DNA of 46,716 nucleotides, from assembly GCA_024508935.1 (NCBI GenBank), contig JANINW010000007.1, forward strand, positions 1 to 46,716, in the 5' to 3' direction. Position 1 is the first letter of the stretch. Each line of letters starts with the position of its first letter. A program made the position numbers and the translations under genes. The notes beneath the pieces are model-generated. The model ran no database searches and was not told where the DNA came from. It saw only the letters and a list, made by a program, of their open reading frames with translations. This DNA comes from Flavipsychrobacter sp. (lineage in GTDB: Bacteria; Bacteroidota; Bacteroidia; Chitinophagales; Chitinophagaceae). Positions 28,664-41,984 of this stretch are shown piece after piece.

Positions 28664-28808
28664 CGTCATTGCGAGGAGGTAAGCCTATCCTTGTGCGTTT
28701 GCACCGACAAAGCAACTTCTCTCCGTGGAGTTAATCTCGCGAAATGAGTATCCACATTATGCAAGCCCGTATTAGCGCGAGATTGCTTCGCTATCGCTCG
28801 CAATGACG
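28664..28808. repeat. Palindromic repeat family A, full copy 1
   Basis: Begins CGTCATTGCGAGGAGG and ends CTCGCAATGACG, giving complementary outer arms. The inner arms are AATCTCGCG and CGCGAGATT with a 30-base loop. Compared with the other copies the left side is longer, because it has a second, inverted piece (TTTGCACCGACAAAGC). It follows the darA gene. Confidence 0.85.
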
Positions 28809-28858: not shown

Positions 28859-28984
28859 CGTCATTGCGAGGAACGAAGCAATCTAGTCACGCGATGCTTG
28901 CACTCATATAGTATCCTGCGTTTGGATTAGATTGCTTTGTCAGCCGCCACTGCACAATGCCCGCCGGGCTTCCTCGCAATGACG
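28859..28984. repeat. Palindromic repeat family A, full copy 2
   Basis: Starts CGTCATTGCGAGGAACGAAGC and ends CCTCGCAATGACG. It is separated from copy 1 by about 50 bases (TGTTGTTGTATGTCATCCTC and on) that recur after this copy at 28987, giving a tandem period of 176 bases. Confidence 0.85.
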
Positions 28985-29034: not shown

Positions 29035-29090
29035 CGTCATTGCGAGGAGGAATCGACGAAGCAATCTCGCGAAATGAGTATCCAGGTTAT
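29035..29090. repeat. Family A left arm before the GIY-YIG gene
   Basis: CGTCATTGCGAGGAGG...GAAGCAATCTCGCG followed by AAATGAGTATCC, the normal left half of the repeat. The matching right half occurs only after the GIY-YIG gene, at 29442-29494. Confidence 0.85.
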
Positions 29091-29126
29091 TGAGAGAATC
29101 ATTCCCCCTTCCTTATCTTTAAAACC

Positions 29127-29429
29127 ATGTCTAAAGGAGGTGCCGTATATATAATGTCCTGCCCGGATAAAACAACATTATATGTTGGCGTGACTGCAGA
29201 CCTCTTTAATAGAGTTATCCAGCATAAAGAAAAATTTCATCCTGCAAGTTTTACCGCAAAATACAACTGCTCGCTGCTGGTATACTACAAATGGTTTGAG
29301 GGCATTGAGGAAGCTATTGCCGAAGAAAAACGTATAAAAGGTGGCAGTCGTAAAAAGAAAGTTCAGTTAATAGAAGCATCAAATGCAGGTTGGAAAGATC
29401 TGTTTGATTCAATAGACCCTTTATATTAA
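29127..29429 (+). CDS. GIY-YIG nuclease-family protein nested inside a family A repeat
   Basis: A 100-residue single-domain protein. Seen: the GIY-YIG signature as 'VYIM' (residues 7-10) and 'LYVGVT' (18-23), with catalytic-type Arg29 in 'DLFNRVIQHK', His33, the metal-ligand Glu67 in 'IAEEKRIKGG' and Asn86 near the end. This is the UvrC-N/Slx1-like minimal fold found as a stand-alone gene across Bacteroidota. Known: GIY-YIG domains cut DNA one strand at a time in homing enzymes, repair and transposition. The gene occupies the loop position of a palindromic repeat, with the left arm at 29035-29090 and the right arm at 29442-29494. This suggests, without proving it, a link between the nuclease and the repeat. 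Alternative: an ordinary gene that a repeat broke around. Confidence 0.88.
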   Translation: MSKGGAVYIMSCPDKTTLYVGVTADLFNRVIQHKEKFHPASFTAKYNCSLLVYYKWFEGIEEAIAEEKRIKGGSRKKKVQLIEASNAGWKDLFDSIDPLY

Positions 29430-29441
29430 TCAGCACTCATT

Positions 29442-29494
29442 ACGCGAGATTAGCTCCGCTGAGAGAAGTTGCTTCGCTGTCGCTCGCAATGACG
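29442..29494. repeat. Family A right arm after the GIY-YIG gene
   Basis: Starts CGCGAGATTAGCTCC and ends CGCTCGCAATGACG, the inverted partner of the arm at 29035-29090. It begins 12 bases after the gene's stop codon. Confidence 0.85.
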
Positions 29495-30553: not shown

Positions 30554-31384
30554 ATGTCCAGGCATACTATTATCCTTTCATTGTTCATTGTACTGCTGGC
30601 AGCCTGCAGTAAAAAAGACAAACCACAACCCGGTACTACTTACAACTATACCAGCACCATCAAGGTACGCAACCATATGGACGATGCCATCAACCTGGCG
30701 TTTTATAAAACCCGCAATGATTATATACACAACATAAACCCCATAGCTACTGCACATATAGCGGTGGGAGATGTGTACAGTGCTACTTTTACCAATGCTG
30801 CCGATTCGGTACTGTACTACGACTGGTATACCGACGACCATTTATACAGCAACTGGGGGCAAAATCATTATTTCAATGCCATAATACTACTCAAGGGCAC
30901 CGCCGGTGACACCGATGTAACGGTCCGTTACGGTTATGATTACTGGACGGCACTTGCCAACAAAGCGGGAGACTCGCTGGTGATAGAGCCATACTATAAC
31001 TACGACTATGGCATGCGCGATTATCTTATCCACTTCAACAAGGTAGAGACCAAATGGCGTTGCGTGTATTGCTATTTCTACAACGGTACACTCGACTGGA
31101 AGACAGCGCCGGACTGGCAGAAGGATATGCGCATGACCATAAGGAAAGATCAGCAATACTTCTTCACCGGTTTCGATGCCTACGCAACACCCCTGGATAT
31201 TGAGGGTGGCATTACAAGGTTCCAGCCGGTTACAGACCAGTTTACGCCCGGCACCTGGTATATACAAAACTGGAACAACAATAAAAGTAATGCAAGCTAT
31301 ATACGCGTACGCCACCACCCTGCCGGCACCGATACGCTGGAGGTACAGTACAGTAACGGCTACTATTATTTTACCGAAGAATAG
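30554..31384 (+). CDS. Lipoprotein of unknown function
   Basis: A 276-residue secreted protein. Seen: signal peptide with lipobox 'LLAAC' and lipidated Cys18, then a charged Lys/Asp linker (SKKDKPQPG). The mature part is rich in Tyr, Trp and Asp ('YDWYTDDHLYSNWGQNHYF', 'WYIQNWNNNKSNASYIRVRH') and probably all-beta. I do not recognise a domain. The low charge after the Cys (+3 Lys) does not match the acidic signal that sends lipoproteins to the surface in some Bacteroidota. The gene's stop is overlapped for 19 bases by the convergent DUF6371 gene. Confidence 0.75.
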   Translation: MSRHTIILSLFIVLLAACSKKDKPQPGTTYNYTSTIKVRNHMDDAINLAFYKTRNDYIHNINPIATAHIAVGDVYSATFTNAADSVLYYDWYTDDHLYSNWGQNHYFNAIILLKGTAGDTDVTVRYGYDYWTALANKAGDSLVIEPYYNYDYGMRDYLIHFNKVETKWRCVYCYFYNGTLDWKTAPDWQKDMRMTIRKDQQYFFTGFDAYATPLDIEGGITRFQPVTDQFTPGTWYIQNWNNNKSNASYIRVRHHPAGTDTLEVQYSNGYYYFTEE

Positions 31385-32253
31385 ATCTCGTTTTCCAGCA
31401 GCCAGTCGGCTATATCGTAGCCGGTGCTGAAGGTGCCTGTTTCTAATAGCCTGCTCACCCTGCAGCCGGGTATGCCTGCCGCTACAGCTGCCCAGCGATC
31501 GTACACACCGGCATCGGGGTACAGTATTACCTTGTGGCCATGCAGTACTTTGCAGCGTGCAGTGCTAAGGTTGCCCACACTGCCGCTGGCCAGCCACAGG
31601 TACTGCGGCATAAGCGCTGCTGCCACCAATGCGGTCTTTTCACTTTCTACTATGGCTACGGGCAGCGTATTACCCTTCAGCAGGTGCTCGCCAAACAAAC
31701 ATTGTACCAGCGTATAATTGTCTTGCTGCATAATGCGGTGTACCCAGCTTATATGGTTGTAAGGCTGCTTTACCCGCCTGCCGCTATGCGCATCATACAG
31801 CATTACCTTACCGCCGCGTATGCGCCCGCCTATATCGCGCTGCCAGAAAACGGTGCTGCCCGGCCAGTACTTGTGCGTGCCCACACCATAGCGCTGTACC
31901 AGTGCAGCTACTACTGCCGCACCCAGCTTGCCCGCCAGGAACTGCACCAGGTGATTGTGCTCATAGCCCGCCATGGTGCTGCTATATACTTCGGTAGCCG
32001 TGACCGATGCCACCAGTGCAGGCGGTGTATACACCGGTGCATTAAAGACTTTTTCTTTTTCATTTTTTCTTCCTGCTTTTTTATGGTAGCCGCATTCCAC
32101 CTCGCGGTTGCAGCGGCCTATATCATCGCCCAGGTGTTGGTTAGTGTAGGTATCTATATAGCGTACAAACACACGCTGCTTCCCGCACTGCGGACAAGTA
32201 TAACGGCTGCCCACGCCCTTATAAGGCTCCAGCCGGTAACGATAGGTTTTCAT
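31366..32253 (-). CDS. DUF6371 / Toprim-like mobile-element primase
   Basis: A 295-residue protein. Seen: an N-terminal zinc finger with C-x2-C 'YTCPQCGKQRVF' and later 'GRCNREVECGYHKK', then a linker, then a C-terminal Toprim-like core. The core has 'VAIVESEKTALVAAAL' (acidic Glu) and 'KVILYPDAGVYDRWAAVA' (Asp), as in DnaG-type primases. This arrangement is usual in DUF6371 proteins of Bacteroidota phages, plasmids and integrative elements. The open frame extends to 32373, but the extension reads through palindromic repeat sequence, so ATG 32253 (MKTYRYRLEPYKG) is used. Inferred role: initiating element DNA replication with the RepA-like ATPase at 34455-35501. No integrase is present, so the element looks partial. 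Confidence 0.8.
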   Translation of the reverse strand: MKTYRYRLEPYKGVGSRYTCPQCGKQRVFVRYIDTYTNQHLGDDIGRCNREVECGYHKKAGRKNEKEKVFNAPVYTPPALVASVTATEVYSSTMAGYEHNHLVQFLAGKLGAAVVAALVQRYGVGTHKYWPGSTVFWQRDIGGRIRGGKVMLYDAHSGRRVKQPYNHISWVHRIMQQDNYTLVQCLFGEHLLKGNTLPVAIVESEKTALVAAALMPQYLWLASGSVGNLSTARCKVLHGHKVILYPDAGVYDRWAAVAAGIPGCRVSRLLETGTFSTGYDIADWLLENEIYSSVK

Positions 32254-32318
32254 AGGTTGATAGGTTTTGATGATGATGTGGTGATGTATGGCTCTTACTC
32301 CTGTCATTCCCCCTCTCC

Positions 32319-32355
32319 CGTCATTGCGAGCGACAGCCCAACCAGGGCCGTCATT
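32319..32355. repeat. Family A partial copy (extension of copy 3)
   Basis: CGTCATTGCGAGCGACAGCC then ACCAGGGCCGTCATTCC. The same extension, with near-identical sequence, precedes the copy at 32811 (see 32761-32798). This shows that the unit was duplicated as a block. Confidence 0.7.
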
Positions 32356-32367
32356 CCTTCTTACTCC

Positions 32368-32494
32368 CGTCATTGCGAGCGACGGCGAAGCAATCTCGCG
32401 GAATGAGTATCAACGTTATGCAAGCCCATATTAGCGCAAGATTGCTTTGTCGGTGCCGGCGCACAGGGGCTATGCTTTACCTCCTCGCAATGAC
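32368..32494. repeat. Palindromic repeat family A, full copy 3
   Basis: Outer arms CGTCATTGCGAGCGACGGCG and CTCCTCGCAATGACG, inner arms AATCTCGCG and the variant GCGCAAGATT, and loop ATGCAAGCCC. About 127 bases long. Confidence 0.85.
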
Positions 32495-32533
32495 GTGGTG
32501 TGGTGTTCATTGTTTCCGTCATTCCTCCTCTCC

Positions 32534-32664
32534 CGTCATTGCGAGCGATAGCGAAGCAATCTCGCGGAATGAGGGTTACTCACGTCTAGCAGGTACATGT
32601 TTACTCGAGATTGCTTTGTCGGTGCCGGCACACAGGGGGCTATGCTTACCTCCGCGCAATGACG
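32534..32664. repeat. Palindromic repeat family A, full copy 4
   Basis: Outer arms CGTCATTGCGAGCGATAGCG and CCGCGCAATGACG. Its loop (ACGTCTAGCAGGTACATG) differs from the ATGCAAGCCC loop of copies 1, 3 and 5, so loop sequences vary while arms are kept. Confidence 0.85.
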
Positions 32665-32810: not shown

Positions 32811-32938
32811 CGTCATTGCGAGCGATAGCGAAGCAATCTCGCGGAATGAGTATCTACGCTATGCAAGCCCGTATTAGCGCGAGATTGCTTTGTCGGTGCA
32901 GGCGCACAGGGGGCTATGCTTACCTCCGCGCAATGACG
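32811..32938. repeat. Palindromic repeat family A, full copy 5
   Basis: Outer arms CGTCATTGCGAGCGATAGCG and CCGCGCAATGACG, inner arms AATCTCGCG and CGCGAGATT, and loop CTATGCAAGCCCGTATTAG. The stretch 32254-33170 holds no gene, only these repeats. Confidence 0.85.
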
Positions 32939-33038: not shown

Positions 33039-33146
33039 CGTCATTTCGAACGATAGTGAGAAATCTCCTGAACACTTGCAAGCTGCTTCATAGAACGACT
33101 GCACCGCGTAACCCCAGGAGATATCTCGCATGCGCTCGATATGACG
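33039..33146. repeat. Palindromic repeat family B, full copy
   Basis: Begins CGTCATTTCGAACGATAGTG and ends CGCTCGATATGACG. The arms AAATCTCCTG and CCAGGAGATATCTCG lie further in. It is a related but distinct family from A; a right half occurs at 36392-36453. Confidence 0.8.
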
Positions 33147-33170
33147 GTACTATGGGCTGGTATAAGAAAA

Positions 33171-34190
33171 TTATGATAATTCGTCAGGTAAAAAGAATTG
33201 TTTAGTGTCATGAATTAATACCAAATTATCAGAAGATAGCCCAGGTCTAATAGCAAGGAACCGGTCTCTGATATTTTCCGCTTCAGGCGATTGAAAGTAC
33301 ACACGTTTTAGATTACTCATTGCCTGTACTATTTCTCTATCTATCTCTCTATTAAAATACGGGAATGAATACCCAATGACAACTAAAATATCTGTCTTGT
33401 TTGTACCTCTAATAGATCGGGAGACTATATTCTTTTCAGAATGTTGCCTTTCCCATGCAAAAGATAAACCTGAAAATAATCCCCCTTGTGGAAACCTTAA
33501 GGCAGCATGGCTCCTAATTATTGCATCTAAAAACTCTACATCAATCATACTAAAAACAGATGGACAAAAGTCATACGTTCTAAACCCATTATCACCAACA
33601 ATATTAGCTGTACCATTCAATTTATAAATTACAAATCTGTCGTTATTTATATGCGTATTGTCTGAAAATTTATTGACTACATTTAGCATAGATTGATTGC
33701 GTTCAATTTGCTTTTGATCGCTGTATTCTGTATAAGTGATTTCAAATTGATAATCATAATTCCAGTTTAGTATTCTTATATTTTCTGGGAAAGAATAATA
33801 TGACTCGTTTAATATAGAGGCGAAAAAAGTATCATAACGTTTGTCATAGCTATTTAACGTTTGTTCGAAAATTAAGAACACAGAAAAAGCTGCTTTTAAA
33901 CGCTTCAGTTCATTCTCTTGGCGTTTTACATAAAGTTTTTTGGCCAAAGTATCTATACTTGCATGTCTTATGCTTTCAGTGTAAAGCCATTCCAAATCAG
34001 ATACAAGTTCGGTCTGAGCTTTACGTTTATTGATCTTAACATTAAAAATATCGTAGTATTCACTATCCAAAAGTTTACAATTATCGCTGTTCAGTAAATC
34101 TATTACCCCTTTAAGTCGAGTTGGAATTTCTTCAACAATGGGCAGTGCATTTCTACTAGCACCAGCTCCGAATAAATAGGTGATATTCAT
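33171..34190 (-). CDS. SIR2-like protein, candidate stand-alone defence gene
   Basis: A 339-residue protein, AT-rich compared with both neighbours. Seen: 'YLFGAGASRNALPIVEEIPT' (G8-A-G-A-S12) is the NAD-binding GAGxS motif. 'NWNYDYQFE' (residues 142-150) sits where TTNYD occurs in SIR2-like defence proteins, and 'VVIGYSFPYFNREID' (271-285) matches the closing GYSF motif. The segment 'YKLNGTA' (189-195) lies where KLHG with its catalytic His is expected, and here it is Asn192. Known: SIR2-like domains in antiphage proteins (ThsA, DSR and others) break down NAD+ on infection. The missing His questions NADase activity, or marks another family. The gene lies between primase and ATPase genes of an element. 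Confidence 0.72.
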   Translation of the reverse strand: MNITYLFGAGASRNALPIVEEIPTRLKGVIDLLNSDNCKLLDSEYYDIFNVKINKRKAQTELVSDLEWLYTESIRHASIDTLAKKLYVKRQENELKRLKAAFSVFLIFEQTLNSYDKRYDTFFASILNESYYSFPENIRILNWNYDYQFEITYTEYSDQKQIERNQSMLNVVNKFSDNTHINNDRFVIYKLNGTANIVGDNGFRTYDFCPSVFSMIDVEFLDAIIRSHAALRFPQGGLFSGLSFAWERQHSEKNIVSRSIRGTNKTDILVVIGYSFPYFNREIDREIVQAMSNLKRVYFQSPEAENIRDRFLAIRPGLSSDNLVLIHDTKQFFLPDELS

Positions 34191-34214: not shown

Positions 34215-34273
34215 CAATTGTGAGTGTTTTGATAATTATAGGTTGTGGAAATGTGTATAATTTCCTTTTATTC

Positions 34274-34306
34274 CTCGAGATTGCTTCGCTGTCGCTCGCA
34301 ATGACG
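34274..34306. repeat. Family A right-half copy
   Basis: CGAGATTGCTTCGCTGTCGC followed by TCGCAATGACG, a half repeat between the SIR2-like gene and the RepA-like gene. Confidence 0.75.
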
Positions 34307-34394
34307 TGTGTGGTGATGCCCAGTAGCCATCCTGCGGTACAAGTGAGTGACACAACGATGCTGAATAGTAGAAATGAAGCTGTGTAAAGAAATA

Positions 34395-36314: not shown

Positions 36315-36378
36315 TATCCACATTATGCAAGCCCGTATTGACGCGAGATTGCTTCGTCGTTACCTCCTCGCAATGACG
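36315..36378. repeat. Family A right-half copy after the HEAT-like gene
   Basis: Starts TATCCACATTATGCAAGCCC and ends CCTCGCAATGACG; the loop and right arm of the family directly follow the stop codon at 36314. Confidence 0.8.
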
Positions 36379-36391
36379 TGGTGTGACGGAG

Positions 36392-36453
36392 CCTCATAAA
36401 ACGACTGCACCGCTTACCCCCCAGGAGATATCTCGCATGCGCTCGATATGACG
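36392..36453. repeat. Family B right-half copy
   Basis: CATAAAACGACTGCACCGCT continuing to CGCATGCGCTCGATATGACG, nearly identical to the right part of the family B copy at 33039-33146. A and B lie next to each other here, as they do at 32811-33146. Confidence 0.8.
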
Positions 36454-36483
36454 GGTACTATGAGGCTGTGTGTTATAACAACA

Positions 36484-41849: not shown

Positions 41850-41984
41850 CGTCATTGCGAGGAGGTACGACGAAGCAATCTCGCGTGATGAAGGTAGTTA
41901 CTCGCAATATTACCCGTGTTATCGCGAGATTGCTTCGTCAGCCGCCGGTGCACAGTGCTGCCCGATGGCTTCCTCGCAATGACG
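41850..41984. repeat. Palindromic repeat family A, full copy 6 (outside the main cluster)
   Basis: Arms CGTCATTGCGAGGAGGTACG and GGCTTCCTCGCAATGACG, inner AATCTCGCG and CGCGAGATT, around the loop TACTCGCAATATTACCCGTG. It lies between DUF486 and the end of clpB, about 5 kb from the next copy, so the family is dispersed and not confined to the island. Confidence 0.88.

Follow-up and report, generated by a model that had tools for sequence, protein, structure and literature searches.

A small GIY-YIG nuclease gene between inverted CGTC-tagged repeats as a candidate compact mobile cassette

Introduction

Repeats of the CGTC REP superfamily, which includes dRS3 of Neisseriae (CGTC-1) and RPE-4/RPE-6 of Rickettsia conorii, have been recorded in five phyla, and the question of what mobilises them was left standing by Di Nocera et al. 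(2013; PMC3733652), in the relevant passages of which no dedicated transposase is named and GIY-YIG proteins are not mentioned. The window analysed here, a stretch of 46,716 nucleotides from Flavipsychrobacter sp., contains a family of repeats bearing such a tag, and between two inverted arms of this family lies a gene for a 100-aa GIY-YIG nuclease. Does the nuclease drive the spread of the repeats, or does it ride between them?

Results

The cassette and its repeat family in the window

The unit has three parts, and its outer ends, as read from the window sequence, are CGTCATTGCGAG (29035-29046) and CTCGCAATGACG (29483-29494):

29035..29071, + strand: cassette left arm, CGTC tag facing outward; homology to the cassette on contig C97 begins exactly at the tag
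29127..29429, + strand: 100-aa GIY-YIG nuclease gene (PF01541, E 2.3e-11; AlphaFold2; Foldseek)
29442..29494, - strand: cassette right arm, inverted, GACG tag facing outward (window sequence, repeat comparison)

A complete gene of 100 residues between inverted arms had been proposed in an initial annotation of this DNA, and both the open reading frame and the PF01541 match bear this out. The left arm had been drawn from 29035 to 29090; its start holds, but the arm proper already stops, with AATCTCGCG, at 29071, and similarity to the gene-less repeats continues to about 29084 (family D1). The right arm is longer than the left by some 15-20 bases. Folded singly, the two arms do no better than shuffles (z 0.4 and 1.1), and they are therefore regarded here as long, mutually inverted arms and not as independent hairpins.

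The same family occurs in the window without the gene:

28664..28808, no strand assigned: gene-less copy with two inverted arms (paired tags, repeat comparison)
28859..28984, no strand assigned: gene-less copy, inner arms diverged (paired tags, repeat comparison)
32368..32495, no strand assigned: gene-less copy (paired tags, repeat comparison)
32534..32664, no strand assigned: gene-less copy (paired tags, repeat comparison)
32811..32938, no strand assigned: gene-less copy (paired tags, repeat comparison)
41850..41984, no strand assigned: gene-less copy (paired tags; folding z -9.2)
34270..34306, - strand: single right arm (paired tags, repeat comparison)
36342..36378, - strand: single right arm, 95% complementary to the cassette left arm (repeat pair I6)

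The paired tags confirm the six full gene-less copies that had been noticed before; their loop, previously put at about 30 bases, measures 34-37 bases in the copies with intact inner arms. The one copy tested for folding (41850-41984) folds far better than its shuffles.

Some neighbouring features deserve a record of their own. A 339-aa gene at 33171-34190 (- strand), for which PADLOC gives a weak match to SIR2 (E 1.3e-5), sits between inverted arms of the same family (32527-32570 and 34270-34313), possibly as a passenger or through chance placement. A gene encoding DUF6371 and zinc-ribbon domains (31366-32370, - strand; PF19898, PF21957) adjoins the repeat cluster, and a second repeat of 36 nt, ending CGATATGACGG, is present in two 100% identical copies at 33112-33147 and 36419-36454 (D16).

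Five PF01541 matches were found in the source genome, which amounts to 3.76 Mb in 98 contigs; three are small genes of the cassette subfamily and two lie within ORFs of 449 and 611 codons. Each of the three small genes is flanked by arms on both sides, and two of the three lie outside the contig of the window. The copy on contig C97 (L047) encodes a protein 78% identical to that of the window and has GCGAG-type arms on both sides, and the copy on contig C96 encodes a protein 54% identical and is bordered on both sides by another arm subtype, CGTCATTTCGAA. As the 3.76 Mb contain only 14 exact GCGAG-type arms (a looser pattern raises the count to 17), and 7 of the exact ones are clustered in the window, the flanking of three genes out of three exceeds what chance would give.

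The nuclease protein

The window nuclease belongs to the Pfam GIY-YIG family (PF01541, 44.3 bits against a cut-off of 22.6), which is the sole Pfam domain matched in it; no classical transposase domain was found there, nor did the nuclease have a match in NCBIfam (four nucleases tested) or in PADLOC. Y8, Y19, G21, R29 and E67 are invariant in an alignment of 22 relatives and N86 is present in at least 90% of them; we take these positions to be the catalytic residues of GIY-YIG nucleases. AlphaFold2 returned a confident model of a bare GIY-YIG domain (pLDDT 93.5), for which the best Foldseek match was UPF0213 protein BH0048 (1zg2), followed by the GIY-YIG domains of Slx1 and UvrC. The protein is too small to hold a DNA-binding domain besides the nuclease domain, and recognition would therefore probably combine the shape of the DNA with the tag.

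Arms around GIY-YIG genes in the same phylum

The search profile was made from the alignment of 22 relatives, which were picked by protein match and not by their flanks. Three close proteins used as contig-search queries gave just four relatives, and the wider sampling was carried out by a genome-wide profile search. In the phylum of the source genome (Bacteroidota, to which the named relatives Taibaiella and Fulvivirga belong), 181 of 296 genomes had a match at E ≤1e-8, with up to 16 matches per genome. The sample comprised 40 loci, one high-scoring gene per genome, chosen non-randomly but with the flanks ignored, with 12-18 kb around each gene.

In the main arm test, which accepts a tag plus a 5-bp stem at most 250 bp from the gene, arms were found on both sides at 24/40 GIY-YIG loci as compared with 4/373 control ORFs from the same loci (p 2e-24); a comparison of this kind with other genes had been asked for in the initial annotation. 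An arm on any side was present at 35/40 loci and at 64/373 control ORFs. With the tag reversed as a control, these values were 10/40 versus 81/373 for any side and 0/40 versus 7/373 for both sides. At 16 of the 40 loci the main test does not find arms on both sides. When a hairpin with an 8-bp stem and one mismatch was required, both sides were flanked at 14/40 loci versus 1/373 control ORFs; this stricter rule misses arms of the GCGAG type and was replaced by the definition given above.

Two further measures point the same way. Within 300 bp to the left or right of the 40 genes there were 112 heptamers resembling the tag, where the far flanks predict 12.3, and the inverted-repeat score across the gene exceeded every in-locus control at 23/40 loci; runs of N inflate the controls of one locus (L101) in this test, and a later count that handles N and uses more controls gave 20/40.

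Could the nuclease be a host repair enzyme of the UvrC/Slx1 kind, a structure-specific nuclease that trims REP cruciforms or branched DNA, with the nearby REPs being regulatory? The nearest solved folds (UPF0213, Slx1 and UvrC GIY-YIG domains) would be in keeping with such a role, and in the relevant part of PMC1839093 three small Caulobacter COG2827 genes, one of them with an SOS box, are discussed as repair genes. The patchy distribution of the gene within the phylum and its many copies in some genomes speak against this explanation, as do gene neighbours that differ among records and a near-identical duplicate pair (see below), both of which are the behaviour of a mobile gene. We consider a repair role very improbable.

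Restriction to one GIY-YIG subfamily

The arms accompany one subfamily of GIY-YIG genes. Small genes of the tRNA type had an arm on any side in 0/8 cases, GIY-YIG domains in long ORFs (at least 400 codons, UvrC-like and others) had arms on both sides in 0/10 cases and on one side in 2, and two further small GIY-YIG genes outside the subfamily had no arms. In a tree of 113 proteins a supported branch (97/85) separates 97 members of the cassette subfamily from 16 tRNA-side proteins; two of 99 proteins were excluded from the trees because of an internal stop. Sorted by match strength, flanking on both sides was seen at 7/12 loci with E<1e-25, at 1/6 with E from 1e-25 to 1e-14 and at 0/6 with weaker matches (three multi-copy genomes, 24 of 30 loci tested).

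The second subfamily has surroundings of its own. It adjoins tRNA genes: ARAGORN detected a tRNA in 10/18 such loci (L041, L043, L045, L046, L133, L185, L188, L193, L196 and L202), compared with 0/17 arm-type loci. At several tRNA-side loci, including L133, the gene is followed by a degenerate tRNA copy in which the anticodon arm is replaced by a short palindrome. L133 and L134 have 340 bp in common at 99.4%.

Five GIY-YIG matches spaced every 315 bp at G331:C1:2945600-2947090 form a tandem array of the gene unit.

Arm-flanked genes in other phyla

In a Patescibacteria-type group, which was reached through a Falkowbacteria genome, 130 of 192 genomes, mostly of about 0.5-1.4 Mb, had matches. 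Among 30 loci from this group (29 from the group search and L126), an arm was present on any side at 29 and on both sides at 24, the density of tags was 22-fold over the far flanks, and the inverted-repeat score beat the controls at 25. The 20 cassettes of this group with outward tags on both sides measure 341-548 bp from tag to tag (median about 374). At L015/L126 (Falkowbacteria) the repeat that borders the GIY-YIG gene is of another, longer kind (GCTTCACCCAAGCATCATGTAGG...) in place of CGTC arms.

A plasmid collection contributed 33 records with a match, of which 15, mostly one per organism, were examined: Azospirillum, Rhizobium (2), Sinorhizobium (2), Neorhizobium, Shinella (2), Sphingobium, Novosphingobium, Neisseria, Aeromonas, Photobacterium, Planktothrix and Spirosoma. 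An arm was found on any side in 15/15 and on both sides in 14/15, the latter value being partly post hoc, as the Novosphingobium and Sinorhizobium arms had been seen before CGTCG and CCTCA were admitted to the tag pattern. The Neisseria gonorrhoeae record contains a cassette with CGTCATTCCCGC-type repeats, which we read as dRS3. The claim of the initial annotation depended on homologues elsewhere having arms near them, and such homologues occur in all three samples (24/40, 24/30 and 14/15 with arms on both sides, the last with the widened motif).

Arms matched to each other and to the nuclease lineage

For the 35 loci with outward tags on both sides, the left and right arms of the same cassette agree at positions 8-13 in 25-32 cases per position, where mispaired arms are expected to agree in 12.6-21.5. 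The first base outside the tag is preferentially a pyrimidine (26 and 27 of 35). Outside the tag, agreement peaks at the first two bases and then falls near to background; its overall value of 4.2 versus 3.4 of 12 owes its excess to a few loci with longer inverted flanks.

Arms and nucleases also vary together. Across 106 cassettes, a set that includes related copies, those with more distant proteins also have more distant arms (r 0.30, p 0.001), and the correlation is retained when only pairs between host groups are used (r 0.29, p 0.001). Three arm classes (NCGA, CC and TCTGA), defined after the arms had been inspected, require 7 changes on the protein tree versus 29 when shuffled, with 17 of 97 cassettes dropped (13 of no or other class, 4 mixed), and the left and right arm belong to the same class in 55/59 cases. 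The label of the host group requires 14 changes versus 31 shuffled, the groups being rough, as 'named records' mixes Pseudomonadota with Planktothrix and Spirosoma (Bacteroidota). Arm class thus follows the nuclease tree better than host group does, which indicates that it is the nuclease lineage, and not the host, with which arms travel. Other repeats of a locus resemble the arms of its cassette only a little more closely (7.61 versus 8.35 mismatches of 16).

These observations bear on the possibility that the gene is a rider, which has no part in the spread of the repeats and gathers between REPs because they are safe or preferred insertion points. Some insertion sequences do target REPs, according to part of PMC1525189, and some cassettes are located within repeat clusters (in the window and in G111). 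Such a gene is hard to reconcile with arms that match each other beyond the mispaired expectation, with an arm class that tracks the nuclease lineage across host groups, and with other GIY-YIG genes that are not so placed, which makes it an improbable explanation. We infer that the nuclease would be the driver of the repeats and not their rider.

Unit ends and empty sites

The ends of the unit were sought in pairs of copies from multi-copy genomes, which gave 13 informative rows (a 14th compared DNA with itself and was excluded). The left end of the shared segment lies within 2 bp of its own tag in both copies in 4/13 rows (G002, G007, G021, and the window versus C97), and so does the right end in 4/13 (G002, G007, G111, G125). 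The remaining ends are not at tags, and some of them lie in repeat arrays. In G002 the shared unit of 393 bp has both ends at tags (tag AGTCA). In G111 two places 6.4 kb apart have 420 bp in common at 99.0%; this duplicate runs 2 bases past the tag on the right, and on the left it begins 19 bases outside the tag, within a repeat array.

Empty sites were found in two genera. In Azospirillum lipoferum 4B the sufB-sufC spacer holds a cassette (L118) whose gene is framed by two repeat pairs, and in A. oryzae, A. ramasamyi and Azospirillum sp. B510, which are 93-94% identical in this region, the spacer is short and has neither tagged repeats nor the gene. A separate cassette occupies this spacer in Shinella sp. 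PSBB067 (L210), and two cassettes at one place suggest a preferred target.

The most informative case comes from Sphingobium, where the spacer between fnrL and a response regulator gene exists in three forms. Strains TomTYG72 and TomTYG65 have no tagged repeat there, and each has another, untagged palindrome. TomTYG64 and TomTYG74 hold one double-tagged palindrome in the same column, and TomTYG46, TomTYG73 and TomMM15 hold a repeat, the gene and a repeat, the gene being frameshifted in TomTYG73. The palindrome of TomTYG64 is composed of the outer part of the left arm and the outer part of the right arm, joined at ACCCCGGG, 8 bases common to both, and it could therefore be either the target of the cassette or the product of a collapse between its arms. 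Repeat and cassette look like interconvertible alleles in these aligned strains. Arms inserted separately from the gene and later than it, which the initial annotation had named as the case against its claim, do not appear among these alleles, and in Azospirillum the repeats and the gene are missing together from all three close relatives.

At the locus of the window itself, the left neighbour gene was found in 9/14 genus relatives, and the 420 bases inspected behind its orthologues contain no arm-flanked GIY-YIG gene. G010 does have another arm-flanked GIY-YIG cassette farther on (G010:C75:5098-7116; L025, L138), at 0.8 kb from the orthologue and beyond one further gene. The right-hand neighbours differ among the relatives, so this comparison says nothing about boundaries. 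A colinear empty site was looked for between G002 and G005 and was not found.

Direct transposition would offer another route, in which the unit is excised or copied from tag to tag and inserted in the manner of an insertion sequence, without homology to the target and perhaps with host factors. It would suit the copy pairs that end at tags, as well as the sites in Azospirillum and in Sphingobium TomTYG72 and TomTYG65, where cassette and arms are missing and no tagged repeat is present. The expected footprint is absent, as a target-site duplication of 2 bp was seen at 1/35 loci (shuffled mean 1.8) and one of at least 3 bp at 0/35, and the bare-repeat alleles of Sphingobium fit an exchange of repeat for cassette better. 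Moreover, GIY-YIG enzymes are hydrolytic nucleases for which we know of no strand-transfer step. We regard direct transposition as unlikely.

The outer tag of the right arm lies close to the end of the matched gene, at a median distance of 44.5 bp in the 20 Patescibacteria-type cassettes and of 79 bp in 13 of the 40 loci of the first sample. This proximity might suggest that the arms persist because they silence the nuclease gene, by ending its transcription or blocking its translation, and that they play no part in movement, and a damping of RAYT expression by REP hairpins is indeed discussed in a passage of PMC3733652. Control of expression leaves unexplained the ends at tags, the matched inverted arms, the covariation of arms and nuclease and the existence of gene-less copies, and there is very little chance that it is the whole explanation.

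Discussion

Proposed mechanism

Taking the comparisons together, we conclude that the unit is a compact mobile cassette, probably driven by its nuclease and spread by cutting and repair. It consists of one GIY-YIG gene of 90-100 codons and matched, inverted, CGTC-tagged arms of the REP type, with the tags facing outward. The nuclease would recognise its cognate REP palindrome, folded or extruded as a cruciform, and cut at or near it; the break would then be repaired from another copy in a homing-like manner, by which cassettes would enter repeats and new sites, and gene-less repeats would spread or persist as non-autonomous derivatives. Cleavage of the repeats, copying by repair and the dependence of the gene-less repeats on the nuclease are the steps that we infer. 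Judged from its sequence and genomic setting, the 100-aa nuclease is a strong candidate for the agent that spreads the CGTC-tagged repeats.

Several genomes do not conform to the simplest version of this mechanism. G040, assembled in one contig, lacks a small GIY-YIG gene despite its 419 GCGAG-type repeats, and its PF01541 matches lie solely in long ORFs (609 and 460 codons); it has either lost the driver or uses a different mobiliser. G170, with 10 GCGAG-type repeats, likewise lacks such a gene, and in G073 (23 arms) and G239 (11 arms) the small GIY-YIG genes belong to other kinds and have no arms beside them. The gene is present in 76/88 repeat-bearing genomes as compared with 105/208 others, a co-occurrence that is significant yet confounded by family, and in family f32 it is present in only 3/11 repeat-bearing genomes. 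The repeat-rich genomes without the gene, the confounded co-occurrence and the weak hairpins fit a loss of the driver or another mobiliser, or else a weaker role of the nuclease.

A broader reading, which we advance tentatively and with some doubt, is that these cassettes form a class of minimal self-spreading elements in several phyla. Each would measure about 340-600 bp from tag to tag, carry a bare GIY-YIG gene between CGTC-tagged palindromic ends, mobilise CGTC REPs by homing into its own repeat family and leave gene-less offspring. The CGTC REPs so mobilised would include dRS3 and perhaps RPE-4/RPE-6.

If this self-spreading reading were true, few known autonomous mobile elements would be as small as the cassettes. 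A dedicated small nuclease, if confirmed as such, would explain the spread of a whole superfamily of bacterial repeats, and genes now annotated as 'GIY-YIG nuclease family protein' or 'excinuclease ABC subunit C' would have to be re-labelled as genes of mobile elements. It would also follow that elements made of REPs and a nuclease arose at least twice, from unrelated enzymes. The cassette nucleases would also provide biochemistry with very small enzymes that have palindromic partners in nature.

Comparison with known systems

Among the matches listed, the open-access literature contained no paper that links GIY-YIG genes to REPs, though earlier notice elsewhere is possible. GIY-YIG is not mentioned at the relevant passages of PMC12306157 and PMC8266576; a table in PMC9465073 lists a RAYT and a GIY-YIG gene separately, and a passage of PMC12455944 names GIY-YIG among transferred repair genes, in both cases with no link to REPs.

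Proteins of the UPF0213/YhbQ type (1zg2, 1ywl) resemble the cassette nuclease in size and fold. Their structures are labelled as hypothetical proteins, and to our knowledge they have not been linked with repeats. With insertion sequences and MITEs the cassette shares short inverted ends around one gene and gene-less derivatives; it has terminal inverted repeats but no target-site duplication.

The cassette gene is also a stand-alone GIY-YIG gene between other genes, as free-standing homing endonuclease genes are. The segA-G genes of phage T4 are of this kind and spread by cutting and repair, as described in part of PMC2988022; they are inherited at cognate loci, and no palindromic arms are described for them in that part, whereas the cassette occupies many sites and has matched arms.

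The arms themselves resemble CGTC REPs, which have CGTC, TGTC or CCTC unpaired at one end, in their outer CGTC or TGTC tag, in the A-T pair that comes first in the stem and in the head-to-head pairs. The CC-type arms of L234 (z -4.1 and -3.8), with an 8-bp stem, a 4-base loop and a CCAG tail, agree with the stem of 8-9 bp, loop of 4-5 bases and CCA tail given for CGTC REPs in the passages concerned (PMC3733652). The GCGAG-type arms of the window differ from them in having no strong local hairpin and no CCA tail.

The closest parallel is the REPtron, in which a RAYT/TnpAREP gene is associated with GTAG-tagged REPs (relevant parts of PMC2817692, PMC8266576 and PMC3733652). In both systems one small nuclease gene stands between inverted palindromes with tags, further palindromes and pairs occur without a gene elsewhere in the genome, and the type of palindrome is paired with the enzyme. 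A GIY-YIG-based counterpart to REPtrons, as the initial annotation had envisaged, gains support from the flanking across phyla, the matched arms and the alleles of Sphingobium and Azospirillum. The tnpAREP gene is mostly single-copy, with no evidence of mobility of its own in the passages at hand (PMC8266576), whereas the cassette gene is multi-copy in many genomes and has a near-identical duplicate in one. The enzyme of REPtrons is an HUH tyrosine transposase of the IS200/IS605 group and their tag is GTAG, in contrast to the GIY-YIG enzyme and the CGTC or TGTC tag of the cassette. The cassette is therefore not a REPtron; it works like one, with an unrelated enzyme and an unrelated tag.
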